64,000 bases of DNA, from positions 744,001 to 808,000 of the forward strand of contig NW_004457624.1 of the NCBI RefSeq assembly GCF_000203815.1, given 5' to 3'. This stretch comes from Cavenderia fasciculata (lineage: Eukaryota > Evosea > Eumycetozoa > Acytosteliales > Cavenderiaceae). Positions within the stretch are counted from its first letter, which is position 1. Each line of letters opens with the position of its first letter. Under the pieces are notes generated by a model that ran no database searches, was not told the origin of the DNA, and worked only from the letters and a program-made list of their open reading frames with translations. Made by a program: the position numbers and the translations under genes. Positions 10,901 through 63,786 of the stretch are shown here, piece by piece.

Positions 10901-11833
10901 TCAACCCTGTCATACATATAGATATTCGCGCTGGATCTATACCCAACACAATCGAGCGTATGTATCTTGGTAATTGCGTGATTGAGAGAGGGTACGTTCT
11001 TCCATCAAGAATCAAACTCCTCGTCATCGACCTCTCTCTAAACTCACCTCAATGTATTCCTGCCTCTGTCCAGTACCTCCTTGCCAAGTGTAACCAACCC
11101 ACAACACTCTTAGAGGGATATATTCCTTCATCAGTGACAACTCTCCATTTGGCAGGTAAATTCGAGTTTCGTTCAGGAAGCATTCCACGTTCAGTCAACA
11201 CCTTGGTGCTGATTGGACTCGAAGTCTCTCCACCCATTTACACCATTCAGGATAGCATTTCATCGCTATATATCAGTGGATTAAAGTGTGATTTTGATGG
11301 TAGCCAATACTCAAACAGCATAAAGCATTTTAGTATTTGTGGAGCGACCAATTTTAACAAACTCAAATCAACGATTCCACCATCAACCAAGTATTTTGAC
11401 TTTCAAGCCACCCATACCGATAATACATCAACTATCGTTAAATTGAATGCCAACGATATTCCAAATGGAGTTACTCATATTAGATTAGGTATGTAGTTGT
11501 AAATAATTAAAACAAGATTTTAAAATATTCATATTTTCATCATACCATGATTTAGGAAATGGATTTAATCAAGCATTAGTTCCAGGATTGATTCCAGACA
11601 GTTGTGAGTATTTGGAATTCCCGTACTACTATGACAAAACACCACTATGGTGGGCCGTACCAAAACAATTGAAAACTGTATCTTGTAATCCTTTTAGGGC
11701 AAGGGTTAGCAAAAATATTCCACCGTCTATCAAACAAACACCAAAAAATCTTTCTCATCAAGGAAATATCGATTATACCCTCATGTCATTCACTCATATT
11801 GACAATGAAAAATACTGGTATATGGAGATTTAA
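7967..11833 (+). CDS. Fused tandem FNIP/LRR protein (array A units A1 + A2)
   Basis: Five exons: 7967..8441, 8526..9737, 9847..10203, 10274..11488 and 11556..11833. All junctions keep phase 1, giving 1178 residues. Unit A1 has the zinc-finger exon (CPLC...NHMILC, a UBZ4-like C-x2-C-x13-H-x3-C), a low-complexity linker with RKRKK, an F-box-like segment (ILHREDYNESVMNLLMTCKD), FNIP/LRR repeats (GSIPPFTTHL, NDIPNGVTHIRLG) and the cap exon (VPGFIPDNCEYLEL...WWAVPKQLKTV). Instead of stopping, the A1 cap runs at 10117 into the tail of a first-exon linker ending SSNHY, which splices into a second LRR exon and a second cap. Unit A2 therefore has no zinc finger of its own. Alternatively A2 could be expressed separately from the ATG at 10300. 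Role inferred: ubiquitin-ligase adaptor. Confidence 0.75.
10117..10121 (+). other. Fusion junction between the A1 cap exon and the A2 first-exon tail
   Basis: Intact cap exons end ATGGAGATT then TAA (for example 11823-11833). Intact first exons read AAGATTGAAAATGGGTC here (for example in A3 near 12400). At this site the text is ATGGAGATTGTAAATGGGCC: the cap sequence up to AGATT, then first-exon linker. The five shared bases AGATT mark the likely microhomology join, and the codon frame is the same on both sides. Confidence 0.75.
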
Positions 11834-11959
11834 TGATAGACTGATACTAGTTCTCTGTATTTCAAAGAGGTCATTATAAAAATATATTTCATATTCGAGT
11901 CAAATAGCTCGCACTTCTACAGCTGTAGAAAATAAACTTTCTGCTTTTAGTTATCGGCA

Positions 11960-14100: not shown

Positions 14101-14351
14101 ACTCGTGAAACAATCGAAAACATTATGCATTGAAATAAAAAAATAAGAATATATATATATTCAAAGTTTATACATATCGATTTAACAGTTGTTGTTTTCT
14201 TTAATTCCTCATCAAATATGTGTAAAATAAAATAGTAATATTACTAAAATAGTTTTTTATGATTCTTCGAGAAATTTTCATAGCCATCCCCCAAGATCTT
14301 GATTTCATTTCATTTTATGTATTAGTTGTTAACATTTTGAAACTCCGTTCA

Positions 14352-16385: not shown

Positions 16386-16736
16386 ATCGACCAGAAAATA
16401 AACAACTAGTATTATCAAATTTAAAATATTTTTCCATCCAAGTTTGTTGCATCAACCTCTACAAACACAATAATTAATTTGATAAGTACAATACAACATC
16501 TGTTATTTTTTTCAATGTTTTTCGAGGATGATCATTTAAAGTAGCTGTGTTATTGGTTGTGACAATAGAATGGAAGAAAGACTAACCTCTCTCAAGAGTA
16601 AACAAGAACTATCAAATAGGGACACTATGTCCTCTATGTAATCTGGTGATGATATGTAAACCCTAGGAAATAAACAATTATTATCAGGAAAATATATATT
16701 TTTCCTCCAAATTTATTTCTCTTTCTTTCTCTCTCT
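16386..16736. other. Intergenic region holding an array A relic
   Basis: Between the A4 stop and the TRAPPC13 stop. It is AT-rich apart from the exon 1 relic at 16570-16643 described separately. I see nothing else in it. Confidence 0.6.
16570..16643 (+). pseudogene. Relic of an array A first exon (A5)
   Basis: ATGGAAGAAAGACTAACC and the following CTCAAGAGTAAACAAGAAC, CAAATAGGGACACTATGTCC match the first ~70 bases of the array A exon 1 (compare 7967-8035), with small indels that destroy the frame. Similarity stops abruptly after CTCTATGTAA, inside the zinc-finger codons. It marks the 3' edge of array A and a lost fifth unit. Confidence 0.75.
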
Positions 16737-39201: not shown

Positions 39202-42200
39202 CTATTTTTTAATTAAATCAATAATCATATTGATTGAACTATTTGATATTTGTGATTGGTTGAATAGATTTAGTTTGTTGAATTGACCTTCTATCCATGA
39301 TTTAATTTGGATGGCTACCATGCTGTCTACACCATACTCTTTGAGTTTGGTGTCAGTGTTGATGAGTGATTTTTGAATGGAGAGGATGTCAGATATTTGA
39401 TCAATCACCATGCTTTCAATTGTGTCGTTACCACCAACACCTTGGTTATTTTGTTTGGTGGCACTAGTTGAGTCAAATGTGACGAGTGGAGTGAACCGGT
39501 ATTTGAGGTAGGGTATGGCTGAAACAAAATGTTTGAGGTTGGCATCAAAACATCGGAGTTGGGTGAATGGGGTGTCTTGGCTGATAAACGACGATCTTAG
39601 AACACCATACACCACCGATAGAGGGAGCATTGACAATCCAAGTGATCCTAGGTTGGTACGTGCACCCTTGTCCAAAGATACTTTACCAGTTGAACCAATC
39701 GATCCCCAATTAATACTTGTTGCAGCCAACCCACATTGTCGACGGTGTTTGGCGAGTCCGTCCAAGAACGCATTACCGACACCGTAGCTAGTGTTACCCT
39801 TGGAGATGAGTGTGGCAACAGACGACAACATTTGAAAGTGGCATAGTTGCCATCCCAACTTGACAAACAAGTTGTGTAAATTATAAGCTCCAACTGCTTT
39901 GGCAGACATTGCTTCGTTATGATTTTCCAAATTAATAGAGTCGGCACCAAGGACATGATAAAAGTTTGCCGTATGTATGACAGTCTTGACTGGTTTGATA
40001 GCAGTGTTGGTCTTGTAAAGTTCGACAATACTCGATTCGAGTGCACTGTAGTTTCCAACATCACACTTAATATAATGAATGGCAAGCGTTGATGATCCAT
40101 CATGATTCTTCATCTTGGTTTGATTCATCAATAACTGTATTTCATACTTTGGTGCAGAGAATGACAAGACAATGATATCTCTTAATTGTGGTGAGTGTTT
40201 GATTACGTATTGGAGACATTCAACCGACATACCAGTCTGTCCAGTGATTAAAAGTGTATCTTGTATTCCTTCCAGAGTATAATTGACTCGATCAATTGGT
40301 TTCTTGTGTTGTTGTTCAGTCCACATTGGTTGTATTAAATCACGATCAACATTTTCAAAGTCAATGACTACCTTTCCAATACTCTTTCTAGATTGAACCA
40401 ATTCCAATGCTTGATGAATATCTTGACATGAATACACTGTACAGTATGTCCAATTCAATTTCTTGCTCGTCAACAATGACTGTATTTCCAAACAATCTCT
40501 CAAATTGAATGAAATATTGTGGAGAGAATGGTAACTTTGTTGTTGGTTAAATGCATCCATGTCGAGTCGGTCCACGATTGTTAAATCTACAACTACACCA
40601 CTGCTTGACAAACACCGTAGATTACATTGCATCTTTGAACGATCCAATGTGTTTATGATCACTTGTACACCTTTGCCATCGGTCAATTGCTTAATCTTTT
40701 TTGTAAAGTCAGTAGTAGACGAGAGGACCGATGTGATAAGACTGCCATAATGTTTGTTGAGGAATGCCGATTTATCTGGGTTGTGTGGCGAGCACGTCAC
40801 AAACACCTTTCCTTGGTGATTACTGCATTTCAACAAGTTGAGGATAGCCAACCCTACAGCTCCGGCAGCACTATGAATGAGAATCGAGTCTGTATCTTGG
40901 AGACTTGCCTTTTTAAATAAGGCACAATAGGCAATTCCAAATACCGATGGGAATGAAGCAGCTTGTACAAATGTCATTTCTACAGGTTTACCAAGTAATC
41001 TCTTTTCATCTACTATAACATGTGATGACAGAGACCCAGTTTCAGAGACAGTGTACACTTCATCACCAACCTTGAACTTTGTAACTTTGTTTCCTACCCT
41101 TGAAACTATGCCAGCCAGGTCTTGTCCAAGAGGAGGATTGTAAGAGTCACATCCTCTTCCACCACTACCAAACAAGTCTTGTTTAATCGACCCATTGAGA
41201 ATCATTGTGTCACGAATATTGAGTGACGATGCTTTCACCTTGACTTCGACTTGAAACTCGGACAATGACTCGCACCGACCTCTGAGATGGTACTTGTAAT
41301 CCTTTTCAAATGATACTTTGAGATCAATGTCATTCTTGATTGTAAATCTTTCATCTTGATCAATTGATAATGGTGATTTAAATTCTCTTTCAACCATGAC
41401 TTGAAGGTCCTTCTTCTTGTTGTTGTTTTCAACAACCAAAGTGAATTCCTTGTCACCCAACAACGATGAATTGGACAATGCCAACAGTTGATCGAGGTTG
41501 ACAATACCAGATACCTCCTTGTCCATTGAAATGGGGATACTGTCAAATTCAAACAATCCAACGGACCCTTGATCTTGGTACTCTCTACAATTTGGTATTA
41601 AACATTCATTGAGTGGACTATCAATCAACGTCAACATTCTAACCTCTATTTGTGCCTTTCTAATGATTTGATGTATCTTTAAATGTTGCATTGTCTTGAC
41701 CACCAAATTATCACTTGTCATTTCTTCCAATGATTCCAAATAAATAATTAATGATCGTTTTTGTTTGATTGATTCTAATAATAGTTTAAATTGATTATTA
41801 TCATCATCATTGATTAAATTATCTGATGAGAATAATGTTACATTTTCACGCATATTACCAATCATCATTAGATTATTTGCTTGTTCAATTAATCGTTGTT
41901 GTATTGAAGAGGACGATGATGAGGATGAAGAAGAGGAAGTAATAAATATAATACTATCCAATTGATTATTAATATTATTATTATTGTTGATTGTTTCTTG
42001 AATAGATTGTTTACGACAAATTAAAAGGGATGTGTTATTGATCACCTCGAATTGTGATGATTCAAGACTAGTCATTAATGAACCAGAGTTGTCTATTGTG
42101 TCGATGGTAACTAAAATCTGACCATTTGGATTCAATAGTCTGTGTAGTTGATGTACAAGGTCGTTGGCATCGACTATACTATCATTTGACAGAATAAGGT

Positions 42201-45200
42201 CATAGCTACATGGTAATAACCCTTGTTCTAAAAGTGACGATGTGGTGGTGGTAGTAGATACACCATGGAGATGAGTAACTCTGGCACCACCTTTGGCATG
42301 CATGAGGTAAGGCACTAATACCATTTCTTCCTGATCATCTGATACAATGTGGTAATCAACCACCAATGAGCTGGCACCAGGAACAGACTCTGAGATAAAA
42401 TGATTGAGGTTACCTATCAATTCAGCAGAGTTCATGTCGTTTGACAAAGTGTCCAAGATCCGAATGACCTTGTGTGAAGACTGAACCGACGCCTTTACAA
42501 ATGATTCCAAGTAGGTTGAAATGTCACCGATAACAACATCAACAACATGTACAGGGAGGGATGGTGAGTTTTTAGGTTGTAACTCTGTTTTGTAGATGTA
42601 TCTTGATGGATCCTTTGCTGTGTGAACCTTGAGTATTTTAGTCAAAGATCGACATACTACAGACCCGCACGTAGCAATAACCGTGCCATTGCAGTCGATA
42701 ATATCACTCGATCCTCTAAACTCGTTTCCTCTTTGACCACTACTACGTGACACGCTGTATAATGATGATGACTGACCAGCTATCATGTTTTGAAGAGGAA
42801 TGTTTTTGGCATAGATTGTCATATCGTGGATTCTGTCAAATACAATCTCGCAACTTGGATGTTCACCTTTAAAACTAACTAGGTTGGCGTGGAGAATGCA
42901 GTCGAGTACAGATGCATTTAAAATGGTGTTGTTGGCTTGAAATTGGTCTCTAGGTGAACTGTCAACTTGGGTCATTGAGTCTCCGTGTTGATTGAATCTG
43001 ACTTGTTGCACACGTTGGAAAGTCTCGCCGTATGGAAGTCCAACCTTGATCAGTTTATCATATACATCGGTATGATTCATTGTGGCAAATGTATACTGCT
43101 GTTGTAACAACTCGACATTGTCATAATGTTGTTCGTCGCAGTCGACTGAGCTAGCTTCTTCAGTCACTGTGATTCTTCCAATTGCCGATTTGATCCATTG
43201 AGACGACTTGGTATCAAAGTATTGAAACATGACATTATAATCATTCGATGTTGAACCGTGACCAATAGTAGTAAACGTTGATTTTAATTTACCTTGTACA
43301 CCTTCAACCAAAAAGAATGGACTGATAAATTCGAGTCGATGAATATGAATATCCTTGCCCGAGAATGCATTGATAATGTTTTCAATGTATCCGGCACCTG
43401 GGAACAAGTACTTTCCTTTTACTTTGTGTCCTTTTAAATATTGATATGATGGTCTTCCAATATCGATTGCACATTCATACGTGTTGAGAGATGGATGGTC
43501 GCGGAACCCAAGCAGGTTGGTAGGGACGCCACCCAATCGTTGTACCTGGAATTCAGGCTGCTCCTCCCAAAGGTATTCCGTATCCCATTGATATCTTGGA
43601 AGGTTTCTAGCACGATGTTTCCAATCGTATCCCAACTCGCTTGAAGAAGAAGAAGAAGAAGATACTACTTGGTTTCTAAAACAAACATTTGCACCAGCGA
43701 AGTAAAGACTTGCCAAACATGATTGAATTGATTCGACTTCATCCTTTTTTCTATTTAATGGTGAGAGGATGGTTGCTGATTTTTGTTGTGATAATAATGT
43801 CTTTAAATAGAACGACAATGTTGAATGTGGTGCAATCTCTAAATAAATATACTCTTGATTATTATTATTATTTGTGAAACTAATTATATTATTAATTGCT
43901 TGTTGGAATAATACTGGTTGTCTGAGATTATCAAAAATTGATTGTGCATTAAATTCTGATGATGATTCTATTAATCGTGATGTCGTTGTTGAGAAGTATG
44001 GTATCGTTGGTTTATCGCATTCATATTTAATATTATTATTCAACTTCTTGAAAATGAATTCCTTTGTTGATTCTTGTTGTGATGAATGGAATGCACATGG
44101 TGTACCAAGGAATGCACTAAATATATTGTCAGCTTTAAGTTGTTGATCTAATAATCTGAGTTGTTTTTCATCACCAGCCAATACAATTGAATCTTCAGCA
44201 TTGTAACATGCAACTTCCATATCATCAAATTGTTGTTGGAATCTCTCATTGAATTTATCATGTGACAATGATACAGATAACATTCTACCACTTCCAATTG
44301 TTGCATTTTGAGCTTCACTTCTGAGATAAACAATTCTTGCTGCTTCTTCCAATGATACAATTCCTGAACACCATGCTGCCGTTACATCTCCAAAACTAAA
44401 TTAATTAAATTAAAAAATATTAATATTTAATTAATAAATGTTTAATTAAGAATAAAAAAATTGTTATACATACCTATGACCAACAACGATTGATGGATTA
44501 ATTCCAAAATATTGATATAATTTAACCAATGCAACTTGAATGATAAATGTTGATGGTTGAGCTAGAATTGGATGGTGAATGGTTTGACCACTATCACTAC
44601 CGGATTCACATAATTTACCAAGGATTGAATAATTGTAGTGTTGTGAGAGTAGTTGATCGACTAGGTTGACTGTATCGCGGAATACTTGAAAGTGGTCGTA
44701 TAATTCCTTTCCCATTCCGTTCCACTGTGCACCTTGACCACAAAATACCATTACCACCTTTGACGACGGACGATTACCAAATTGTCCAATGTTGGAAGCA
44801 TACGATAATGGTTTATCATAGATCTTTGTTGAATTGATAAAAGAGTCCCAATCTTTTGCAACAATCACCTTTTTATAAGCTGGTTGGTTGGCTTTTAAAG
44901 ATTGATGTAAAACAAATTCTTTAAATGTTAAAATATTTCCAAAACAACCAGTATTATTCTTGATCATATCAATATATAAATCCATTGATTTTTTACTATT
45001 TGTTGATAATGGTATTAAATATTCATCTTGTTGTTTTGGTTCTAAATAAATAAATAAATAAATAATTAATTAATATTTAATAAATATTTAAATATATTTA
45101 TATCACATACCAATTGAATGATTTCTTTGATTATTATTATTATTTTTATATTCTTGAATAATAATATGTGAATTTGAACCTGTAATACCAAATGAATTAA

Positions 45201-46569
45201 TTCCCATTCGAATGATTCTATTTTCATCATAATCTGGGAATGGTTCATTTTCCAGTACAATTTTAATTTCACCGTTGAGGAGATCAATCTTTGGATTGAG
45301 TTGATTGAAATGAATGTTTTTAACCAACATTCTATTCTTTAACATCATGGCACATTTGATGAGTGCAGCCACCCCAGCAGTGCTTTCCGTGTGACCGATA
45401 TTACTCTTGACCGATCCAATACGAAGAGGGTCTTGTGTTGAATGTGACCCTTTAAATACATTACCAAGTGCTTTGATCTCTATTGGGTCACCTGTAGGAG
45501 TCCCAGTACCATGGCACTCAATATAATAAATGTCAGATGGAGACAACCCAGTTTCATAGAGTGCTCTCTTTGTATTGACTTGTTGAGCTTCACTCGACGG
45601 TGAAGTAGGTGATGACTTTTCAAAATTACCATCTACATTATAACTACCGCCTTTAATCACACAATATATATCATCTCCATCTTCAATAGCACGTGATAAT
45701 TTCTTTAATACTATCATTGCAACTCCTATAAATTAATAATCATAATAAATATAAAAAGTATTAATATATTAATTTAATTTAATTTATATCTATTTGTATT
45801 TATATTTACCTTCACTACGACAATAACCATCAGCTGAAGAATCAAATGAAGCACATTTACCACTTTTACCCAACATTCCAGCAGATGTGAATGAAATGTG
45901 ATTGATTGGGTCAAAGAATGCGTTCATTCCACCGGCAATGGCAATATCACTGTCACCTTTGCGAATAGTGTCGACGGCCATGAGAACACCGATAAGGGAT
46001 GACGAACAGGCCGTATCGATAGACAACGACGATCCGCGGAAATCAAAGCAGTAGGAACATTTGATAGAAGTACCCGATCTTCCCATCTTGAGGATATTGC
46101 TCATCGTCGTCATGTTGTGTGTTTGCATTGTACTGACTGCATCAAACATTTGACCGATAAATGTGGATGTAGGACTCCCAAGTATAGAAATGGGATCAAT
46201 ATGAGCATCTTCTAAAGCTTCCCAGAGTACCATCAAAGCGACGCGTACTTGTGGGTCCATGGCAGCAGCGTCCTTTGGAAGAATACCAAAAAAGTTTTTG
46301 TCGAAGTCTGTCCATGTCTTGTAATCGAGGAAGCCCGATCGATCAGTTGCAATGTATCCCTGGTCTACATATGATTTCGACCATCTCTCTTTCGGATTCA
46401 GTTGAGAAATACCATCCAATCCATTGACTAATTGATTCCAAAATTCTTGTGGAGTTTTAGATCCACCTGGTAATCTACATCCCATTCCAATAATTGCAAT
46501 ATCATTATCATTATTATTATTATCTTGTTGTTGTTGTTGTTGATTATTATTATTATTTTTATAATCCAT
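39202..46569 (-). CDS. Type I polyketide synthase (PKS-1)
   Basis: Four exons on the minus strand: 45810..46569, 45111..45725, 44474..45041 and 39202..44395, 2378 residues. KS (about 20-450) has the active Cys in SIDTACSSSL and both histidines in ECHGTGTPTGDP and NIGHTEST. AT has GQGAQW, GHSFGD (catalytic Ser) and PCAFHS. DH is at about 960-1200, with HKVKGKYLFPGAGY and VLDCILHA. A methyltransferase-sized segment lacks a glycine motif and looks inactive. ER is at about 1720-2030, with GQDLAGIVSRVG and HSAAGAVGLA. KR is at about 2045-2250, with LLITGQTGMS and SYGVGNAF. ACP carries YGVDSM near 2335. There is no thioesterase or chalcone-synthase-like domain, so product release needs another protein. 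It should make a reduced polyketide or fatty-acid-like chain; the product is unknown. Confidence 0.93.
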
Positions 46570-47758
46570 TTTTGAAAAAGAATTTAAAATATATAGGTAT
46601 ATTATTTGTTGGGTAGATTTATGTATTAATTATGATTATTAAGATTATTTACAGAGGTAGATTAAAATTGTTTTGTTGTTGTTGATGATGATGATAAATT
46701 AAAAAAATATAAAGTTAATATTAATATTTTTAAAGATGTTGTCAACTATTTATAAAGTTATTCCTATACCTTTTGTTCAGGGTGAGATTTGATTGGAAAG
46801 GGGTTTGGGAAGAGTCGGTTCTAACATTCAATTGTCGGTACCCCTATCTATTGCACATGAGGTAGGGTAATATTGGTCAGCAACACAAGTATGAACTGAA
46901 TGAATGACAACGTTGCTCAACTCTCTCTCATTCTCGGTTTTATCGATGAATTTTTTTAACCAAGGAATCCAATCTAATTTGAAAAGAGGGGGTTGTGTCA
47001 TGAACCTCCACCAAATATATTCCTCTTCTTGTTTTGTTGTTATAATAATTTTATCATTATCATCATGTTGTTATATCACCACGACATAGAACCAAACCAA
47101 AATAGATTATGAATGTGAATGAATTGATACCACCGCTACCGCTACCGCTGCCACTACCATGATGACCAACTTGGTCGTTTCACTACTCACCTTCACTTAC
47201 TTTCAATCGATATCGATATCGAGAGAAAACAAGAGGAGTTGTGTGGAGTGTGAGTCAGTCGGTCGATAAAGGAAAGCGACTAGAATGAATGAATGAATAA
47301 ATGAATGTTAAAGGTTGCGTGTTGTTGTGATAGATCTATCGATGTCAAGCCAGATAGCCATCTTATGTGTGCAAGACAGGTCGATTGATTTGATGTCTGA
47401 CATTGCACATGATTGGCAAGTAGAGTGTGCATGTGTGTATGTGTGTGTTTGCACAATAAAGTGTGAATCCAAAGATCGATGATGATGATAGGAATAATAA
47501 AGTTTGATCATCAAGCTAGTTTAGTTTAGTTTAGTTGGTGGGTGAGGTGACCAACTCGATGATGATGATAATTAAAATAAAATTAAAAGAATTTAATTAT
47601 TTAAAAATTAGAGGTGAACATCATATGATCATAAATTAATTTTATCAAAGTATTTTCTCTATCTCACACCCCACTTGATAATAATGTAGTTTGTGATGAT
47701 TCTTCATTTTATTGTTGCTCTACTAGATTATTTGTATAATAATATTAAATGAGCAATC
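46570..47758. other. Divergent intergenic region
   Basis: About 1.2 kb between the starts of PKS-1 and the gene at 47759. It is AT-rich near both genes, with a less AT-rich middle (46780-47260) that has no credible open frame. It should contain both promoters. I recognise no element. Confidence 0.5.
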
Positions 47759-49094: not shown

Positions 49095-52000
49095 TTATTT
49101 TTTAATTATTCTATTTACATTTTCAATGATTGAATTAATTGTACCATTTGATATTTGAGCTTGATTAATTATATTGGATTGTTTAAATTCAACTTCAATC
49201 CATGATTTGATTTGAATAGCATTCATAGAATCAACTCCATAATCTTTGAGTTTGGTGTCACCATTTAATAGATTCTTTTCAATTGAAAGTAGGTCTGCAA
49301 TGAATTCGATAATCTTATCATTCATATTGTCTTGATTGTCATTATTGTTTGATTTCTTGGCGACAATACTTGACAAGTGACAGAATAAATGTGAAAGATT
49401 TGGTGTTTCAGAGAGGAATCTGTCGACTTTAATGGCTGCACAAATAATACTTGTAAATGGAGTATCAGAATCGATAAACGATGATCTGAGTACTCCATAT
49501 ACTGTTGAGAGTGGCATCATATGTGCTCCAATACTTGACAATGCTTCATTTGATAGTTTACTAATTGCAACTCTTCCAGTTGATCCAATCGATCCCCAAA
49601 TAATAGCTGTTGCTGCTAATCCACAATTTCTACGGTGTTGAGCAAGATGATCGAGGAATGAATTGGCAACTGCATAACTGAAACTTTCTCTTCCAGAGTA
49701 TTGAGCAATCGATGACAGTAAATGGAAATGATTTAATTTCCAGTCTAATTTTTCAAATAAATTATGAAGATTCAATGCACCAATTGCTTTGGCCATCATT
49801 GCTTGTCGATGATTCTCTATTGTCACATCATCTGCATCTGCAAATACATAGGTATTGGCACAATGAATAACTGATTTGACTGGTTTAATAGTTGAATCAT
49901 TTTTGTAAAGTTGTTGAATTGATGAAGAGAGTTGATCATAATTTCCAATATCACATTGAACATAATGTAATCTAAGGTGTGCTTGATGTTTGTTGATATG
50001 ATTAATTAATAATTGAATTTCATATTTTGGTGATGAATAGGAAACAACAATAATGTCACGTAGTTGAGGTGCATGTTTGATGATATAATGAAGTGATTCA
50101 ACAGCAACTCCAGTTTGACCAGTCATGAGAAGAGTATCTTGAACACCATCAAGTTGATAGTGTACTCTTTCTATCTGTTTTCTATCTCTTTCACGTAACA
50201 TTGGTTCGACCAAATCTCTTTCAGCTATTTCATAATCAATGACAACCTTTCCAATATGCTTTCTTGTTCTAATATATTCCATTGCTTCAAGAATTTGTTG
50301 ACATGGGAATACCTTGATAGGTGGCATCTCCAACCCTTCTTCAACGATGAGTTTCTTGATCTTGTTGGTGTAGGGGATATGCTCTTCATTGAGTTGAAAC
50401 GCAGTGTATCCCTTATCGAATTGGAATGGTCCCATATCGATATTGTCGACACTAAAGAATTGGTCGACGGACAAGTCAATAATCATACCATTTCTATAGA
50501 GACATTTAAAGTTATCATGCATTCTCGTATAGTCTAGTGTATTGATTACATAGTTTACACCCAGTCCATCGGTCATTTCCAAAACCGATTCTGTAAAGTT
50601 GTCATATGACAGTACAGCAGTGATAAGTGAGCCATAGTGTTGTTCGAGATACTGTTTCTTTTCATCTGATCCAACTGTCACAAACACTTTGCCAGTGTGT
50701 TGTTGGTGTTTGAGGAGATTGAGCATTGTCAGACCGACACCACCAGTTGAACTATGGATGAGAATAGATTCGAATGGTTCAATACCGGCTTTTTTAACTA
50801 GAACAACATAGGCAGTACCCATTGCAACTGGAATAGACGCAGCTTCAGCAAATGAGAGTTCCTTTGGCTTGTGAACTAGATTGTGTTCCCATGCCAACGT
50901 TGACGAGGCAAAAGAATGAGAGCTACCAAAAACTTCATCACCAATCTTGAAGTTTGATACTTTTGGTCCAATTCTTGTGACGATACCTGCAAGATCTTGT
51001 CCCAATAGAGGATCGTAAATATCACCAAATGGGAGTATTCTCTGATCGACTCTACCTTCCAAAGTCATAAGATCTTTGAAATTGATTGATGCTGCTTTGA
51101 CTTGAACTTCAACACGGTAGTCTTCCATCACCTCTGTCTTTGATCTAAGATGGTATTTTGAATCCTTTTCAAACTTTACTCTAATATCTTGTTTATCGGT
51201 GACTATAAGTCTTGAATCCAATTCCAATGCTTTGGGAGCATCTATTATTCTTTCAACATTGACTTGAATAACTTGATCATTGCATTCCAATTTAATATTC
51301 TTTTCACCAATATGATTGCTGTTGGCATATTGCATGATTTGGTTGAGTGAGAGTTGATTACAACTTTGATGATCCATGCTGATTGATATCGAATCAAATG
51401 AGAACATATCAGATGGACGATCATAATCTCTGCAAATTGGAACCAAACATTGATTGAGTTGACCAGTTATCAATGTTATTAATTTGACAGGTAGTTGTTC
51501 CTTTCTTAATATTTGGTGTAATCTGATGAGTTGCATTGATTTCTTGTCAAGATTACTCGAATTCATTTCAACCAATGATTCCAAATAAATAATTACAACC
51601 TTTTCTCCTTGTTGATATGATATTGAATCCAACAATGATTGATATTTACTTTCATCGCTAATATCATCACTTGAAATACTTTTAACTTGTTTTGAAATTG
51701 ATGATGCTTGTGAAATCAATCTGGTTGAAGTGGTGGATGGAGAAGAGGATGTAGAGGAAGAGGGAGTAATAAATAATATTTTATCAATATTATCGAAATT
51801 GGTTTCCCTCATTGATGTCTTTTTACAAATCATTGTAATATCATCTGGTTCGAGTTTTAGATTATTATTAATATGTTGAATATTAAATTGTGTTGATTTA
51901 ATATCTCTGATGATTAATTCTTTGCTGTTTTCATCGACGACCACTGAATCATTGTTGATTACAACGAGTTGACCATTTGGATTTAATAGTTGATATAATT

Positions 52001-55000
52001 GTGTTGTCATATATTCATTATTTTGAATAAATTCTTGTGATGATAAAATGATATCATAACTATTTGAAAGGAATCCTTGGTCATTCAACGATAATGATGC
52101 ATTGAACTCTTTAAATAATTTAATTGATAAATTATTATTCTCGAGGAAATCAAAAGAGATTGAGAAATCCTGAGTAGAGAAATCAATGATCATATTCGAG
52201 ACTGAATCCAATGTTGCAAGACAACTTCCAATAAGATTGATAGCAAGAATATCATTAAATCCAAAGTCCAATACTCTAATCATCTTGTGTGTTAACGATG
52301 ATTTTAGATATCTTTCTAAATATTCAACAACATTATTGCTGTTTTCCGAGGAGGATGGAGATGGTGAATTCTTTGGTTGATAAATTGACTTTTTGATGAA
52401 TTGTGATGGATTTTTAGCTTGATGTACTTTTAATACTTTGGTCAATGATTTACAAATCAATGATTCACATTTGATGATGATATTACCATGTTGGTCAATA
52501 ATATCAAGTGATCCTTTGAATTCATTTCCTCTTTGTTGTTGACGATTTCTACTGTTCATTGAAGTCTTTGATACGTTGAATAAAGAGGTACATGGGTGTT
52601 GAGGAATATTGTTTGAAAAGATGTGGAAATCTTGAACTCTATCAAATATGACTTCACATTTTTGATGTTCTCCTTTAAACTTTTACAATATTTGAATGAA
52701 TCATACAATCCAATACCGATGCATTTAAAACTGTATTTGATTGTTCAAACTTGTTTTTTGCACTACAATCAATCTCTGACAAAATAGAACCATCTTGATT
52801 GAATGATATGTTGTTGACTCGCTTGAATGTATCGCCATAAACCAATCCAACTTTGATTAACTTTTCATAAACATCTGATTGTGTCATCATGGCAATGTTG
52901 TATGATTCTTTTTTAAGTTTGGTAACAACGTCATACTTTTTGGCAAGCGTCACTGGGGTCTTGATTGATAATCTACCTACTGACGATTTAGTCCAAGTTG
53001 CTGCTTTACTATCATAATATTGGAATATTACTTGATAGTCCTCCGGTGATGATGACACAAATGACGATTTCAAACGAGATGGTACACCTTCTTTGAGGAA
53101 GAATGGTGCAATAAACTCGAGATGATGGATATGGATATCTTTGTTGGGGAATGCATTAATAATGTTTTACAAGTGTATCCTGATCCTGGGAACAAATATT
53201 TTCCTTTTACTTTGTGTCCTTTTAAATATTGATATGATGGTCTGTTGATATCAATCGATGATTCATAGGTCTTGAGTGATTCATCATCGCAAATACCAAG
53301 CAATGTTGTTGATACACCTCCCAATCTTTTCTTTTTGAATGGTTCTTGTTCCTCCATAAGGTACTCGGTATCCCATTGATATCTTGGAAGATATCTTGTT
53401 CTATTCTTCCATTCATTGTCATCATCACCGATGAGGGGTAATTGATTTGTGAAATTAACATTTGCACCAATGAAATAGAGTTGTGAGAGACATGATTGAA
53501 TTGATTCGACTTCATCCTTTTTTCTATTTAATGGTGAGAGGATGGTTGCTGATTTTTGTTGTGATAATAATGTCTTTAAATAGAACGACAATGTTGAATG
53601 TGGTGCAATCTCTAAATAAATATACTCTTGATTATTATTATTATTGGTGTTTTTGATTATATTATTAATTGCTTGTTGGAACAGTACTGGTTGTCTGAGA
53701 TTATCATAAATATATTGTGCATTAAATTCTGATGATGATTCTATTAATCGTGATGTCGTTGTTGAGAAATATGGTATCGTTGGTTTATCACATTCATATT
53801 TAATATTATTATTCAAGTTCTTGAAAATAAATTCTTTTGCTGATTCTTGTTTTGATGAATGAAATGCACATGGTGTACCAAGGAATGCACTGAATATATT
53901 GTCAGCTTTAAGTTGTTGATCTAATAATCTGAGTTGTTTTTCATCACCAGCCAATACAATTGAATCTTCAGCATTGAAACATGCAACTTCGATATCATCA
54001 AATTGTTGTTGGAATCTCTCATTGAATTTATCATGTGACAATGATACAGATAACATTCTACCACTTCCAATTGTTTCATTTTGAGCTTTACTTCTGAGAT
54101 AAACAATTCTTGCTGCTTCTTCCAATGATACAATTCCAGAACACCATGCTGCTGTTACATCTCCAAAACTAAATTAATTAAAAAAAAAATATTAATATTT
54201 AATTAATAAATAAATATTAATTAATTAATTAAATACAACATACCTATGACCAACAACGATTGATGGATTAATTCCAAAATGTTGATATAATTTAACCAAC
54301 GATACTTGAATGATAAATGTTGATGGTTGAGCTAGAATTGGATGGTGAATATCTTTATCATTACTATTTCTTAATTTATCGATAATAGAGTATTGATAGT
54401 ATTGACATAATAACTTGTCCAAGTGATCAACCGATTCACGGAATACTTGAAAGTGATTGTATAATTTTTCACCCATTCCAGCCCAGTGAGCACCTTGCCC
54501 ACAGAATACCATCACCACTGATTTGTTTGATTCACTGTTCAACTGAGACATGTTTGAAACTGATGTTTGTTGTTTTTCATAAAATATACTTGACGTTGAC
54601 AAAAGTGAATCCCAACCATCAGCAATAATCAACTTTTTACAAGGTGGATGGTTCGTTTTCATTGACTGATATCTGACAAAATCTTCAAATGACATCTTAT
54701 TACGATACGACTCGGTATTATTCTTAATCATATCAATATATGAATCAATTGATTTCTTGCTATTTGCTGAAAATGGAATTAAATATTCTTTTGCTTTCTC
54801 GTGATCTAAAAAAATATATTATATATAATATAATAAATAATTATTAATATCTAAAATAAAATAATCATAATAATCATCATTATAAACATACCATTATTAT
54901 TAATTAAATTATTATTATTATTAATATTATTATTTCTATATTCTTCAACGATGACATGTGAATTTGAACCAGTTAAACCAAATGAGTTGATTCCCATTCG

Positions 55001-56218
55001 AATGACTCTGTCATCTGGTAAAGGTTCATTCTCCAATACAATCTTTATTCTGCCATCCAACAGATCAATTCTTGGATTTAATTCTTTAAAGTTGATATTC
55101 TTGATCAGAGTTCTATTCTTGAGCATCATTGCACATTTGATGATTGATGCAACACCTGCTGTACTCTCGGTGTGTCCAATATTACTTTTGACCGATCCTA
55201 TTCTGCGTGGTTGTTCTTTAGAATGTGAATTGCCAAATACTCCACCAATACCTTCATCCTGAAACGGATCACCAGTTGTTGTTCCTGTTGCTTGACACTC
55301 GACATAGTAAATATCAGATGGTGACAGTCCAGTCTTTTGAAGAGCTGTACTTGTATTTACTTGCTGTGCTGCACGTGATGGAGCTGTTGGTGACGACTTT
55401 TCAAAGTTACCATCAGCATTACAGTTACCACCTTTGATAACACAATAAATATTATCATTATCTTGAATTGCTTTTGATAGTCTCTTTAGAATGACGACAC
55501 CAACACCTTCACTACGAACGTATCCATCAACTGAAGAGTCAAACGATGAACATTTGCCAATCTTCCCAATTAACTTCATTTGTGTGAAATGGGCTGAAAT
55601 AGTTGGTTCTACGAAAGCATTCATACCTCCACAGATAGAGATATCACTGTCACCGTTACGAATAGTATCGATACCTTGGAGAATACCAACAAGTGATGAT
55701 GAACAGGCTGTATCAACCGATAAAGCAGGACCACGGAAATCGTAGCAATACGATGCTTTGAGGGCAGTATCTGATCTTCCAGCTCTGAGGATAGGTTTCA
55801 TGTTTGGAATGTCATAGTTGTGCATTATTTCATTTGAGAGAAACATCTGACCTACAAACACAGATGTATTTGAACCTCTGATTGATGCAGGGTCGATATG
55901 AGCATCTTCTAAAGCTTCCCAAATGACTGTCATAAAGAGACGTACTTGAGGATCCATGGTTGAAGCTTCAGCAGTCAGTGTACCAAAGAATTGACGATCG
56001 AAATTGGTCCATTCCTTCATATCTAGGTAACCAGCACGTTCCGAGGCAATAAACTCTTGATCATTGTATGATTTAGACCATCTGTCTTCAGTGATGGTGC
56101 TAATACCGTCCAGACCATTGACAAGTTGCTCATAAAACTGTTGAGGTGTTCTTGATCCACCCGGTAGTCTACACCCAATACCAACTATTGCAATATCATT
56201 ATCCTTGTTGACACTCAT
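49095..56218 (-). pseudogene. Type I polyketide synthase (PKS-2), damaged
   Basis: Three exons on the minus strand: 54892..56218, 54244..54805 and 49095..54168. Domain order matches PKS-1: KS, AT, DH, degenerate MT, ER (GQDLAGIVTRIG, HSSTGGVGLT), KR (LLMTGQTGVA, SYAVANSF) and ACP (YGVDSMNA). KS keeps the active Cys (SVDTACSSSL) and the NIGHTEST histidine, but the HGTGT motif reads ECQATGTTTGDP: the first catalytic His is Gln. In DH the frame breaks just after FPGSGY (about 53165) and again near 52690. The second break restores the original frame, so net insertion is three bases, with stops between. The rest is open. The DH at least cannot be made as it stands, unless both breaks are assembly errors. 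The KS change would still impair condensation. Confidence 0.8.
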
Positions 56219-57809
56219 TATAATTATTATTATTATTTATTTGAATAGTTGTTGTTGGTATAAACAAAATATTAAAAAGTGAGGATGATTTGAATGAATG
56301 AGGTGAATGGGTAATATAAATAATATTAAGAAGAAGAAGAGGATGAGGATGAAGAAGCTAACTAGTTTAGAGAACTGAAAAGGATAACACTCTGTTCTTG
56401 TTCTTTTAAACATGTTCCAACATGTGTGTATTGGGACTAGTACTCCAATTACTGCTAGTACTGGTACTAGTTGCAGCTGATGCTGTTGGCAACAGGGTGA
56501 GGTCTGTTGCAGCTGACCAATTACTAGTCGGTAATTGTCATGACAGTCCAGCACTCGATATATAGTCCATCTATCTTGTCTGTCTGCTGTCTGGTTGTTT
56601 GCACCCTTGTCCAATAACAACATGTCATTATGTTGGTTAGGTAAGGTGAGTAGTGTAGTGGGACGGACACCAATTAAATTAATTATTTAACACCAACTAA
56701 CTCTATTTACATATATATCTATCTATAGTTGGTTGTTGTAGAGATGATTGGTGATGTATAAATATATATATATTTGGGAGTAGTAGACATTCTTGTTTGC
56801 TGTTGTTGTTTGTTGGTTGTGCAGCAACCAACCTATAATAAGCAATATTGCATAGTTGTGAGTTGTATCTGGTTGTTGATCTTGCAATAATAAAATGTTT
56901 AAACGAGTGAAAGAGTGAGTGACAGTGTAAAAGAGACAGATGGGGGTTGACTCTATGTCTCTTTCAAGTAGAGGACGCTTCCCACCTGAAAAGATAAAAT
57001 TTAATTTTATCATTATTTATTGGAACATGTTATTTTGACTCTCGGGAATATAATATAATATTTAAATCCAACCTCACACACTCACTATCTTATCAAATCT
57101 ATATGCTATTAAAAATAACCATCCCTCTCTCTCTCTCTTTCTCTTTCTTTCTTTCTCTTTCTTTCTCTCTCAACCTCTAAGAAGAAAAGAAGGAGACACC
57201 ACCTCATACACATACATTTTCCAATATCTTGAAATAATGATATTCATTCATTCGTTCATTCATGTGTTGAACACACAAAAGTATAGGTAATAAGTGAAAC
57301 TTATTTGGGTACTGCTATTTCAAGTAGCACCTACCTTGAAATTCATTATAATTGTGTGCTATTATATGGAATGTATGTACATACAAAAAAGGTGAACTTG
57401 ATGGTTTTTGAAAGGGTTGATCAATAATTATAATTAGACATAGATGAAAGAAAGACACAATTGAATCAGATTCGAATCGCTCTTGTGGAGGAACAAAATA
57501 ATTTAATATCATAATAACAACTCGATGGAAGCAAGAAATCATATGTAAGCTGTCTCTTGTAATCCTAGTCGTCTCAACATAAGCCAAAATATTTCACGAT
57601 CTATCAAACAATTATCCGAGTCATAATGGAGGGAACAAATTCCGAAGACTGGTATTTAGAAATCGAACATCATTTATTGAAAATAGATATAATAAACCCT
57701 GTCACATAAAAATAACAATGCTCATTTATCCACATATTAGTCTAACCCATTTAGTTTAAAAAATCATTAAAATTTATTGATGAAGAAATCTTTCATTTCT
57801 TGAAACTAA
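56219..57809. other. Intergenic region with simple repeats and an array B relic
   Basis: 1.6 kb upstream of PKS-2 and of array B. It holds GAA/GAT-rich (56329-56358) and CT-rich (57123-57172) tracts, ATTC repeats near 57245, and a decayed FNIP cap exon at about 57500-57675. No intact gene is visible. The promoter of PKS-2 should lie just above 56219. Confidence 0.55.
57500..57675 (+). pseudogene. Relic of an array B cap exon (B0)
   Basis: The stretch CTGTCTCTTGTAATCCTAGT, then GTCGTCTCAACATAAGCCAAAATATTTC and CGATCTATCAAACAATTATC, closely follows the cap exon of B1 (59555-59620). It is followed by GAAGACTGGTATTTAGAAAT, like the end of B2. Stops and indels interrupt it. It marks a lost unit 5' of B1. 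Confidence 0.7.
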
Positions 57810-59696
57810 ATGGAATCAATAGTTAAAGATTGTATATCGAATATAACAGGTGTTTGTAGAATATGTAATCAAAAGATATCATCTTATGATGACGATGACG
57901 ATATACATCAACAATCAATGATCAATCATTATTTAGATTGTATCGATTCATTTAAATCGGTATTGTTAAATATCAATAATAGTCGTAAACATGTCGATCA
58001 TGATCATCAAGATAGTAATATTAGTAGTAGTTCAAGAAAGAGAAAGAAGATTAAATCATCCTCGATATCTGAACCACCTACATCAACAAATCATTATTGT
58101 AAGATATTTATCTACTATGTTCGGGATCACATGATTGTAATATATTAATGATTACATATTCTCGTACTATCTAGTTAAAAATTCTTTATTTAGAGTATCA
58201 ATGATATCAATATTACATCGTGAAGATCATAATAAAAGTGTAATGAGTCTATTGATGACTTGTAAAGATGCTATGAAATGGAAGGATACCGTTGTATTCC
58301 CAGGATTACCTTCTATTAACACGATAGAATCATACAAGAAGAATAAAAGAATTAAACAACTACCAAAAAGATACTATAGAGTCGATATCAAGAGTGTTAG
58401 AGATCGAGAGTACTTCAAAAAGAATGTCGATGGTTTAATCAATCACCATTGTAGAGAACTCAGACATTTCTGTGGTGATGATACAATACCAGCTGGATTC
58501 ATACCAAATCACTTTACAAAGATTCAAGTTTTTGGAAAGATAGAAGTTGGATCACTACCCCCATTTACAACTCATCTCTATCTTGGGTCACACCGTCACC
58601 AACAAGAGATATATCGAAAACTGTTTCCAGATACAATAGAGGTACTCGATATCATCAATGGAGTGATTTGTAAACAATCAAACATTAATGATCTCTTGCC
58701 ACACAATATCAGGACACTTCGAATGACATCCAATTTAGTTCATCCCTATCTATTTAAACTCAAGAAACTATATAGTCTCACCATTATGAACGAAAAACAA
58801 GAGGAAGATGACATTAATAATGGCCAGATAGATGTTCGTGCTGGAACTATACCAAGTACAATCGAATATTTAAATCTTGGTAGTAACAACATCGAGAGTG
58901 GGTCTATTCCGTCGAGTGTAAAGTACCTTGAAATCAACCTAGCTAAAACCCCACTCGGATGTATCCCTCCTTCTGTCAAGTATCTTTATGGGCATTGTTT
59001 CAAACCGGCAACACTCTTGAAAGGGTCAATTCCTTCATCCATCACAGACCTTCATTTGGAAGGTCCATTCAGTGTAAATATCTCCGGAAGCATCCCATCG
59101 TCGGTCACCTCGTTGAATCTGGTTGAAGTTCCACATATTCCCATTTTACCAGAACTGGATAGTATTTCTAAACTATCTCTCTGTCATTGTGGACCTATAC
59201 ATGAAGATAGTCCATATCCAAAGAACATAAAGTATTTCAGTATTGTTGGTTACGGTCGATATAAATCTATTCCGCCATCAACAAAATATTTGTATTATGG
59301 AATTACTAATTCTAAATTGAAGGAAAACGATATTCCAAATGGAGTAACTCATATTAGATTAGGTATGTTATCAATAAATGAAATCATATCATGATATTGA
59401 TTAAAGATAGTAATTTATAATTCTCATCCAAAATATATTTTGTAGGATTTAGTCAAGAATTAGTTCCAGGATTTATTCCAGATAGTTGTGAGTATTTGGA
59501 ATTTCCATCCATCTATAACAAAGCACCACTTTGGAAGGCTGTACCAAAGAATTTGAAAACTGTCTGTTGTAATCCAAGTCGTCTCGGTATAAGCCAAAAT
59601 ATTCCACCATCTATCAAACAGGTATTTGTCAATGATACTCATCAAGGAGGTTATCTTTGGGTAAAAGACTCTGTGTTCAAAGAAGAAGACTGGTAA
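57810..59696 (+). CDS. UBZ-like zinc finger / FNIP-LRR protein (array B unit B1)
   Basis: Three exons, 57810..58098, 58175..59362 and 59446..59696, 575 residues, introns phase 1 as in array A. Exon 1 differs from array A: MESIVKDCISNITGVCRICN, with the zinc ligands CRIC and HYLDC separated by an acidic loop (SSYDDDDDIHQQ), then SSSSRKRKKI. Exon 2 is homologous to array A exon 2: FKNSLFRVSMISILHRED, LLMTCKDAMKWKDTVVFPGLPSI, then FNIP repeats such as GSIPSSVKYLEINLAKTP and NDIPNGVTHIRLG. Exon 3 is the cap, VPGFIPDSCEYLEF...APLWKAVPKNLKTVCCNP. This is the only unit of array B that reads through intact. Inferred role: adaptor combining an ubiquitin-type finger, an F-box-like helix and a binding repeat. 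Confidence 0.85.
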
Positions 59697-59820
59697 TTCC
59701 TAACATCAATCACAAAAAAAGATTGAACAAAAGTAAATAAATAATTTAAAAACCCTAAAAAAATTGACCTCTTCAATTGAACTTTATACCTACCTATTGG
59801 TTTGTTCATGCAAAAACTAA

Positions 59821-61744
59821 ATGGAATCAATAGTTAAAGATTGTATATCGAATATAACAGGTATTTGTAGAATATGTAATCAAAAGATAATATTATCATC
59901 TGATGATGTTAATGATGGAAGTGGTGTAACATCATCACATCAACAGACAATGATCAATCATTATTTAGATTGTATCGATTCATTTAAATCGGTATTGTTA
60001 AATATCAATTATAATAGTAAACTTGTCGATCATGATCATCAAGATAGTAATATTAGTAGTAGTTCAAGAAAGAGAAAGAAGATTGAAAATGTATCGCCAT
60101 CAGACCCGACAACTATTACATCTTCATCATCAAATCATTATTGTATGTTTTAAATTTATTCTACAATAATATTAGGGATATTAATAGATGTATACTAATG
60201 ATTACAATTATTGTATTATAGTTAAAGATTCATTATTTAGAGTATCAATGATATCAATATTACTACACGAACATTTTAATCAAAGTGTAATGAGTCTATT
60301 GATGACTTGTAAAGATGCTATGAAATGGAAGGATACTGTTGTATTCCCAAGCCTACCTTCTATTGATGCGATAGAATTGTACAAGAATAATGGAAGAATC
60401 AATCAACTACCTCGACGATACAATGGAGTATATATTATGAATTTTAGAGATAGAGAGTATTTCAAAGAGAATGTCGATGGTTTAATCAATCATCATTGTA
60501 GAGAACTAAACTATCTAATTGATGAACCGATACCAGCTGGATTTATACCAGATCACTTTACAAAGATTAGAGTGTGTGGAGAGATAGAAGTTGGATCAAT
60601 ACCACCATTCACAACTCACCTCTCTCTTGGGTTAGACAAGAACCAACAAGAGATTTATAAAGAACTCTTTCCAAATACATTAGAGGCACTCAATATCATA
60701 AATGAAGTGATTTGTAAACACTCAAACCTCGATGATCTCTTACCACACAATATAAGTGCGCTTGAAATAACATACAGTTTGGTGCAACCCTATCTCTTTA
60801 AACTCAAGAAACTAAATAGTCTCGCCATTCGAAACTTTGGACACAAAGACCATGACAATGAAAAGATAGAAATTCGCGCTGGAACTATACCAAATACAAT
60901 CGAACATTTAAATCTTCGTAATTGGACTTTTGAGAACGGATCGATCCCATCGAGTGTAAAGTACCTTGAAATCAACCTCACCAATAACCCATTCAGATCT
61001 ATCCCTCCTTCTGTCAAATACCTATATGGGTTTTGTTACGAACCGACAACACTCTTAAAAGGGTCAATTCCTTCATCCATCACAGATCTTGGTTTGGAGG
61101 GCCATTCGAGATAGATATCTCTGGAAGCATCCCATCGTCGGTCACCTCGTTGAAACTGGTAGAAGTTGAACATATTTCCATTTTACAAGAGCTGGATAAT
61201 ATTTCCAAACTATCCCTGACTCATTGTGAATTGAAACTCGATGCAAGTCAATCCCCAAAGAATATAGAGTATTTTGGCTTTTTTTCCAACTATATCCGTA
61301 CATCTATTCCACCTTCAACAAAATATTTGGATTATGGTATATTTCATGATAAACCCAAAGCCAATGATATTCCAAATGGAGTTACTCATATTAGATTTGG
61401 TAAGTTGTTCAATGGAATCTAGGAAAAGAACCGAATCGTTTAATGTTTAAAATATTAAGATTTTTATCTTTTATTATATTTTAGATATTGATCAAGCATT
61501 AGTTCCAAGATTTATTCCAGACAGTTGCGAGTATTTGGAATTTCCATACCACTATAACAAAGCACCACTTTGGAAGGCTATACCAAAACATTTGAAAGCT
61601 GTCTCTTGTAATCCTTGTTGTCAGAATATCAGCCAAAATATTCCGCCATCCATCAAACAAACATGCGCAAATATGCCTCATCAAGCAAGTATTTGGGCTG
61701 ACGACTTTATATTCAAGGAAGAAGACTGGTATCTAGAAATATAA
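59821..61744 (+). pseudogene. Array B unit B2 with a one-base deletion
   Basis: Exons 59821..60142, 60222..61399 and 61485..61744, with all splice sites intact. Exon 1 carries CRIC, an enlarged loop (about 29 residues) and MINHYLDC, then SSSSRKRKKIEN. The LRR exon matches B1 until about 61100, where GGAGGGCCATTCGAG replaces the expected GGA-GGN-CCA-TTC-GAG. One base is missing, and a TAG follows at 61112. The sequence beyond stays open in the shifted frame (GPFEIDISGSIPSSVTSLKL to the cap exon), showing the break is recent or a sequencing error. As written, a protein truncated inside the repeats, about 405 residues, would be made. Confidence 0.7.
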
Positions 61745-61850
61745 CATCACTGAATAAAAAATTTACATAAAAATGACACAACAAATCTCATATCGGTATC
61801 TATCTTTTGAATACATATTCTTAAAGCTAACCGTATTTAAATTAAACTAA

Positions 61851-63786
61851 ATGGAATCAATAGTTAAAGATTGTATATCGAATATAACAGGTGTTTGTAG
61901 AATATGTAATCAAAAGATAATATTATCATCTGATGATGATGATGATATACATCAACAATCAATGATCAATCATTATTTAGATTGTGTCAATTCATTTAAA
62001 TCGGTATTGTTAAATATCAATAATAGTCGTAAACATGTCGATCATAGTAATAATCTTAAACATGTCGATGATAATCTTCATCAAGATATATTACGAAGAA
62101 AGAGAAAGAAGATATCATCAATGTCATCCTCCTCGACATCTATCCCTTCATCATCAACAAATCATTATTGTACGATATTTATTGTTAGTTATCTTCATCA
62201 TGATTGTTTACTAATGATTATTCTTGTATAGTTCAAGATTCATTATTAAGAATATCAATGATATCAATATTATATCGTGAAGATGATAACGAAAGTGTAA
62301 TGAATCTATTGATGACTTGTAAAGATGCTATGAAATGGAAGGATACTGTTGTATTCCCAAGATTACCTTCTATTAATACAATAGAATCGTACAAGAATAA
62401 TGGAAGAATCAATCAACTACCTCGACGATACAATAGAGTAGATATCGAGAGTCTATATTATGAATGTTAGATAGAGATTATTTCAAAAAGAATGTCGATG
62501 GTTTAATCAATCATCATTGTAGAGAACTAAACTATTTCATTAATGATCCAATACCAGCTGGATTTATACCAGATCACTTTACAAAGATTCAAGTTTGTGG
62601 ACGGATAGAGGTTGGATCAATACCACCATTTACAACACACCTTCTGATTGGGTCGTCGCGATACCCACAAGAGATATATAAAGAACTATTCCCAGATACA
62701 TTAGAGATGCTCGATACCGCGTACGGAGTGATTGGGGAACACTCAAACCTCGACGATCTTGTGCCACACAATATAAAGGTGCTTTATATTGCATCCAATT
62801 TGGTTCATCCCTATCTCTTAAAACTCAAGAACTTATATTTAATGACCACTTACGATATTCAAGATGGTGAAGGACATGGATATATTCGCATTGGAAATAT
62901 ACCCAAAACAATCGAGTATTTATATCTTAACAATTGTACAGTTGAGAGTGGATACACTCTTCCATCAAGTATCAAGTACTTCTCAATCAACCTCACTAAA
63001 AACTCACCCCAATGTATTCCCTCATCTGTAAAGTACCTATTTCTTGTTTGTCAAGGCCCTACAGTCCTCTTGAAAGGATGGGTCCCTTCGTCAGTAACAG
63101 ATCTCAGATTAGATGGCCAATTCCAACTAACAATAGGAAGCATCCCATCGTCAGTCATCACATTGTCACTGACTGGTTTTGATGTCTCCCCACACGCTTC
63201 AACCATTCCAGATAGCGTTAATTCATTAATTATCAATGGATTAGATTGTCAATTCGATGCAACTCTCTATACAAGTAGCATCAAGTATTTTGGTATGTTA
63301 GGAAAGTACCCTTTCTCAATCAAATCGTGTATTCCACCATCGACAAATTATTTTGATTACCAATCCAGCTATATATCTCAATGGAATGCCAATGATATTC
63401 CAAATGGAGTTACTCATATTAGATTGGGTATGTAACAAATCAGCAGATATCGTAATAGATTATATAGATATAACAGATATTTTATTTTCAACCAACTATT
63501 TATAGGGTATAACTTTAATAAAGAATTGATTACAGGTTTTATTCCAGACAGTTGTGAGTATTTGGAATTATCCTACATTTATAATGAAGCACCACTTTGG
63601 AAAGCTGTACCAAAACAATTAAAAACTATCCGTTGCAATCCAAAGTGTTCTGTGATGAGCAAAAATATTCCAGCTTCTATCAACCAAACACCTAAAACCA
63701 GGGCACATGAAGGAGGGAGTACATGGGATGCTAACTTTAGATACCTTGGTTTATGGAGAAAGACAGACTGGTATATGAATATTTAA
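61851..63786 (+). pseudogene. Array B unit B3 with an early frameshift
   Basis: Exons 61851..62169, 62232..63427 and 63506..63786, with splice sites intact. Exon 1 has CRIC, a poly-Asp loop and MINHYLDC, a duplicated HVDH/HVDD stretch, then RRKRKKI. In exon 2 the frame fails at about 62450. After RRYNRVDIES the text TATATTATGAATGTTAGATA resembles the B2 version (YIMNFRDRE) but is out of frame, giving TAG at 62468. It resembles two slightly offset versions of the same segment joined together. The remaining repeats and cap are open in the new frame (LDRDYFKKNVDG to the stop). As written the gene gives a short protein with only the zinc finger and F-box-like part. Confidence 0.7.

Follow-up and report, generated by a model that had tools for sequence, protein, structure and literature searches.

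Tandem FNIP-repeat genes of Cavenderia fasciculata with an F-box-like block and an optional C2HC finger: probable substrate receptors of a ubiquitin ligase

In this article, I will discuss a family of tandemly duplicated genes in the dictyostelid Cavenderia fasciculata, present as two arrays (A and B) in a 64,000-nucleotide stretch of DNA, bases 744001-808000 of the contig called C21 here (the window), whose copies probably encode repeat proteins choosing targets for protein destruction. The reading that I favor, on balance, is that these are lineage-specific, tandemly duplicated substrate receptors for an SCF-type (Skp1/cullin-1) ubiquitin ligase. A conserved block at the start of the second exon would be a strongly diverged F-box docking on Skp1; the solenoid of FNIP leucine-rich repeats (LRRs) encoded by exons 2 and 3 would bind the target; and an optional N-terminal C2HC finger, which presumably binds zinc and is connected to the remainder by a linker that is basic and variable (with RKRKK, which may be a nuclear signal), would add a protein contact or steer localization and would not read ubiquitin in a known UBZ (ubiquitin-binding zinc finger) mode. 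The computed basis consists of the exon layout, FNIP membership, the predicted fold, constraint on the finger, the existence of fingerless genes and the missing ubiquitin-contact residues, together with weak profile kinship of the block to F-boxes and the presence of broken and remnant copies. The family, whose array is unstable and whose C2HC finger may be present or absent, is a variation on FNIP-LRR/F-box-like receptors and not a separate system.

Array B consists of three units on the forward strand (57810-59696, 59821-61744 and 61851-63786) with three predicted exons apiece, and the anatomy given for it in a preliminary description of the window holds in the main: each unit has an exon 1 with C-x2-C...H-x3-C and RKRKK, then an exon 2 with FNIP repeats and an exon 3 bearing DSCEYLE plus WKAVPK or WKAIPK. 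The introns are predicted GT...AG introns of 62-85 bases, and the splice sites of all units discussed here are sequence-based predictions. In B1, the sole unit of this array that is open through all three predicted exons (575 amino acids), exon 1 (57810-58098) encodes a finger of what I call type B, C-x2-C-x20-H-x3-C, and RKRKK; exon 2 (58175-59362) opens with KNSLFRVSMISILHREDHNKSVMSLLMTCKDAMKWKD, which belongs to a putative F-box-like helical block of ~45 residues, and continues into the FNIP repeats; and exon 3 (59446-59696) supplies the final FNIP repeats and the stop. B2 (exons 59821-60142, 60222-61399 and 61485-61744) has a type B finger with an x27 spacer and a frameshift in exon 2 near 61110, and B3 (exons 61851-62169, 62232-63427 and 63506-63786) has a type B finger with an x21 spacer and an exon 2 frameshift near 62460, the 3' part of this exon being nearest the fingerless gene L025. 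A degenerate exon 3 copy was also noticed by eye at 57540-57670, upstream of B1.

The identity of the repeats is secure, with Pfam PF05725 matching B1 at E 3.7e-31 (107.4 bits) and A1 at 70.8 bits against a cut-off of 21, and across the genome at least 193 FNIP matches were counted (150 of 848 candidates scored). The separate cap that had been proposed for exon 3 has to be abandoned, since the best FNIP match spans the exon 2/3 junction in both B1 (residues 475-513, junction ~492) and A1 (548-587, junction ~562), meaning that the intron splits an FNIP repeat. Compared to other FNIP/FGxxFN LRR proteins (PF05725; CroV588, PDB 6nyr), the present family adds the helical N-terminal block and often the finger, and its repeats are irregular by eye.

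To delimit the family, 99 residues from the exon 2 start were searched against the whole genome (31.0 Mb, 21 contigs), giving 23 matches to E 1, two of which are parts of B3, and hence 22 genes with such an exon 2. Seventeen of these lie on C21, 15 of them between 751 and 863 kb, with one apiece on C4, C5, C12, C18 and C20. The presence of a finger was scored by reading the open reading frames (ORFs) upstream of each exon 2, which assigned a type A finger to six genes (A1, A3, A4, L027, L032 and L035) and a type B finger to ten (B1, B2, B3, L024, L028, L031, L033, L038, L039 and L041), while none was found in the ORFs upstream of A2, L022, L025, L036 and L040 and no exon 1 was identified for L043; with 16 genes having a finger, 5 without and 1 lacking an identified exon 1, the finger is optional. 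An orphan exon 1 in array A raises the number of fingers to 17. By eye, L022 resembles a type A exon 1 minus its finger and L036 a type B one whose finger is broken, and in L035 the frame of exon 1 stops short of the usual splice site. RKRKK was read in 12 of the 22 genes, with close variants in a few others; by itself it proves nothing about nuclear location. Types A and B also look alike by eye in the 3' part of exon 1, the half running RKRKK...NHY.

The preliminary description had also seen an F-box-like helix at the start of exon 2, and here the kinship finds weak support that is specific to this block, and a curated F-box match is missing. The family profile scored 17.0 against F-boxes of the same genome (a comparison set of 20 of the 25 PF12937 loci returned, the best of 87 matches), a score that a single shuffle in 300 reached when the F-box columns were permuted, and likewise a single one in 300 with the family's own columns. 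When exon 2 was scanned in 35 windows, its three N-terminal ones took the top three ranks with 15.3-16.0, compared to 10.6 for the next. L043, which is related to the family in both search directions (E 8.4e-5 in one, and 19 further places at E 1.9e-6 to 1.2e-3 in the other), gave a sub-threshold match to PF00646 (E 0.13, 12.6 bits, cut-off 20.5). The block is also the most constrained part of the exon, with a median dN/dS (nonsynonymous to synonymous substitution ratio) over 14 close paralogues of 0.20 for residues 1-45, rising to 0.43-0.52 in the repeats; the proportion of synonymous differences (pS) is lowest there too (0.28 vs. 0.36-0.52), which may reflect homogenization by conversion. 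Directly before the first splice site (e.g., 58089-58098), Asn-His-Tyr/Phe is kept in most copies, the fingerless ones included, L031 having Asn-Arg-Tyr instead, and these residues may form the block's first turn. For Dictyostelium discoideum, Boland et al. (2022, PMC9485057) report LRR proteins of the FNIP subclass among the Skp1 interactors, and F-box-like sequences that are degenerate and allow insertions between helices. Going by profile kinship, exon 2 likely opens with an F-box-like block.

Several results weigh against a receptor of this kind. No Pfam F-box was found for whole B1 or A1, nor for N-terminal pieces of B1, A3, L038, L039 and L040; the hhalign probability for the block against F-boxes is low (7-15%); a PDB search with the N-terminal profile returned three matches to E 10, none related and none an F-box; and in the AlphaFold2 model of exon 2 (18 sequences), in which the repeat solenoid after the block is mostly of high confidence, the block itself forms helices 3-15, 20-33 and a short 35-37 with a predicted local distance difference test (pLDDT) score of 52-67. 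The repeat fold does not discriminate, because the structure-search lists contain many unrelated LRR proteins, and even the alignment to the FBXL-type F-box/LRR receptors (FBXL2-SKP1, 6o60) begins at model residue 35, so that the F-box is not the matched part and many unrelated LRR proteins score alike. Finally, repeat positions on the concave face, as assigned from the sequence pattern rather than from coordinates, are no more variable than other exposed positions (proportion of nonsynonymous differences, pN, 0.317 vs. 0.284, with 347 of 2,000 random sets as high), so diversifying selection on the recognition face was not found.

The missing F-box match and low pLDDT of the block would both fit proteins in which the exon 2 start caps the FNIP solenoid at its N-terminus and which act as scaffolds or bind ligands, with no connection to ubiquitin, as has been suggested for Cafeteria roenbergensis virus (CroV), whose repeat proteins are seemingly without enzymatic associations and may be structural (PMC9525666). 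However, a cap does not sit well with a profile test that singles out this very block, nor with its size, since the N-terminal capping module described for CroV539 in the same paper has 15 residues, compared to ~45 here that are the most conserved part of the exon. I consider this explanation unlikely, although it deserves to be taken seriously.

Turning to the finger, type A has the form C-x2-C-x13-H-x3-C (7 fingers) and type B a spacer of x15-x32 (10 fingers). A six-frame scan of the window contains the type A spacing four times, compared to a shuffle mean of 0.03 and maximum of 1 (100 shuffles), but these are near-identical copies and therefore not independent. With a looser pattern that allows spacers of 8-30, the window yields 10 matches, seven inside these units and three elsewhere, so that the motif alone says little for type B and the case rests on constraint. 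In type A (n=7, including the orphan), pN/pS is 0.071/0.217 in the finger region and 0.308/0.406 in the linker that follows; in type B (seven of the 10, with the distant L038, L039 and L041 excluded), the values are 0.140/0.315 and 0.302/0.345, and silent changes are present in some ligand codons, all of which indicates that the finger is kept by purifying selection. The Cys-Cys-His-Cys ligands are present in 17/17 fingers, and their columns are invariant in the 7 + 7 aligned rows. Checked for the beta-beta-alpha fold expected of UBZ4, the type A finger is modeled by AlphaFold2 (8 sequences) at a mean pLDDT of 79, with a bridged turn (single-residue bridge 19/25), a helix 31-49 that carries His37 and Cys41, and a second helix 52-66.

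Types A and B align to each other in hhalign with P 0.0095 and a probability of 4.3%. Foldseek returned three matches for the type A model (E 5.3 to 9.7, none significant) and VIA-align none of note, but with so short a chain a structural search has little power and excludes nothing; PDB profile searches with type A and type B fingers and searches with single finger sequences gave no informative match, and NCBIfam nothing useful. A B-box needs more than four ligands. The finger conserves four, and hmmscan to E 10, with filters that drop weak matches, gave no B-box. The same x13 build was found outside the FNIP genes in three ORFs (E 0.004-0.02), L017 and L019 on C8 (~220 amino acids each) and L018 on C13 (76 amino acids), none of which has FNIP repeats, and L017 and L019 have Ala at the second position after the His (His+2).

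Copy change in this family has left its marks. Exon 2 is interrupted in 4 of the 22 genes (B2, B3, L031 and L041), and B3 looks as if it were a recombinant, having a type B exon 1 and yet repeats that group with the fingerless L025 (support 100/99), with its frameshift upstream of those repeats. On a 19-row tree built from the repeats (including fragments of B2 and B3 and excluding L031, L041 and L043), neither exon 1 type forms one clade, type A needing four changes and type B five, of which the starred branches force two and three; the exon 1 labels are not clearly clustered on it (82 and 98 of 500 shuffles as low), and its deep part is unsure because of two long branches (L038 and L040). 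One could read these interruptions, along with the remnants in the window, as a mostly decaying array with few working genes, but in A3, A4 and B1 none of the three predicted exons is interrupted and both finger and helical block are under purifying selection, making general decay very improbable.

The preliminary description went furthest in taking the finger as possibly a UBZ4-like domain that links ubiquitin reading to substrate choice; the CCHC ligand order agrees with such a domain, and the spacing and the residue at His+2 do not. In favor of such a UBZ4-type domain, in a protein that reads ubiquitin and selects substrates, are that order; CPLC and N-x-H of type A, which recall RAD18 and WRNIP1 (Asn at His-2 in 6/7 type A fingers); the modeled helix with its His and Cys after the bridged turn; and a trail of sub-threshold matches, namely the Pfam Zn-C2H2_12 "autophagy receptor zinc finger" (E 0.0078 for an 87-residue piece, 0.2 for the whole protein), FAAP20 (E 0.043) and TAX1BP1 (0.053) among 48 PDB matches dominated, from the top of the list on, by RING and other fingers, and the TAX1BP1 UBZ as the third of the three Foldseek matches (E 9.7). 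However, in the UBZ4 fingers of solved structures used for comparison (RAD18, WRNIP1 and FAN1, the FAN1 stretch having Met at the place of the last Cys) the spacer is x11, as opposed to x13 in type A and x15-x32 in type B. The Asp at His+2 contacts ubiquitin in UBZ4. It is present in 3/3 of these comparison fingers and in 0/17 of those described here, where 15 have Ile or Leu at this place, L038 has Ser and L041 has Arg. UBZ2 and UBZ3 fare no better as identities: in work on FAAP20 (UBZ2), the helix motif of these classes is D(-4)-A(0)-L(+3), with Asp at His-2 and Ala at His+2, and D164A and A168Y each abolish detectable ubiquitin binding (PMC4267625), and this Asp-Ala pair is found in 0/17 fingers, the Asp alone in one (L035). 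As a property of the family, ubiquitin reading also founders on the 5/22 genes that show no finger. Since spacing and contact residues both fail, the module is kept here as a C2HC zinc finger and "ubiquitin reader" dropped, the latter being very improbable; C-x2-C...H-x3-C alone does not define a ubiquitin reader. Least probable of all is that the finger is a new small recognition module which binds a ubiquitin-like or already modified protein through a surface unlike those of UBZ2, 3 and 4, with a single polypeptide both sensing the modification and recruiting the SCF ligase; if true, the fingerless copies would be its sensor-free version and the module would also occur in non-FNIP proteins of the genome.

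With the diverged F-box reading still the one preferred, the closest known relatives in architecture are the giant-virus F-box and FNIP proteins (Megavirus baoshan and others), which share an FNIP solenoid behind an N-terminal F-box or F-box-like part; the F-box fusions in Megavirus baoshan are noted, and the structures of CroV FNIP proteins solved, by Huyton et al. (2022, PMC9525666). The present family differs in having no Pfam-recognizable F-box and a finger in front. Pattern searches of viral contigs gave two matches for the block and 90 for the finger, none confirmed as relatives. Among dictyostelids, the Acytostelium genome paper names zinc finger and FNIP repeats together in a single large family, OG5 126643 "Zinc finger, B-box domain and FNIP repeat-containing protein", counting 241 (Ddis), 381 (Asub), 206 (Ppal) and 55 (Dfas, D. 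fasciculatum) (PMC4334915), whereas the genes described here, compared by family name, have four conserved C2HC ligands and lack a B-box in hmmscan. No description of a C2HC finger joined to FNIP repeats was found in the literature searched, which mostly did not include subscription journals.

Array A (7162-16385) is less regular, and the statement that every array unit has the full anatomy does not extend to it. A1 (7967-10214; exons 7967-8441, 8526-9737 and 9847-10214), A3 (11960-14100; open, 662 amino acids) and A4 (14352-16385; open, 632 amino acids), all on the forward strand, bear the type A finger. A2, also on this strand (10274-11833; exons 10274-11488 and 11556-11833), keeps only the tail of exon 1 and has no finger of its own. 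On the minus strand, 7162-7755 holds an isolated exon 1 with a type A finger and no exon 2; it lies head-to-head with A1, matches it at 200/201 bases of the finger stretch, and is either a short finger-only protein or debris. The frameshifted B2 and B3 depart from it as well, and four more genes beyond the window show no finger upstream. Because A2 lacks an exon 1 start, A1 and A2 could be joined by splicing: an alternative splice at 10203 in the last exon of A1 leads in frame into exon 2 of A2, giving one open frame of 1178 codons, and the putative fusion (7967-11833) would have two F-box-like/FNIP halves. A decayed type A exon 1 start with an internal stop lies at 16570-16660. Elsewhere in the window, an LRR/FNIP-like gene (by eye) at 43-2316 on the forward strand has a weak F-box-like match (E 0.001, below the cut-off), its residues 16-75 aligning to 36 profile positions as though split by an insert, and two similar large genes on the minus strand (39202-46629 and 49095-56236) resemble type I polyketide synthases when their translations are read by eye.

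FNIP proteins form a large dictyostelid family with hundreds of genes per species (PMC4334915), and, according to the CroV study, little is known about their functions (PMC9525666), with one D. discoideum example being chtB, an FNIP gene in which an insertion creates a social cheater (PMC3559258). The finger-bearing and fingerless copies found here within a single region are natural pairs for determining receptor targets and what the finger contributes.
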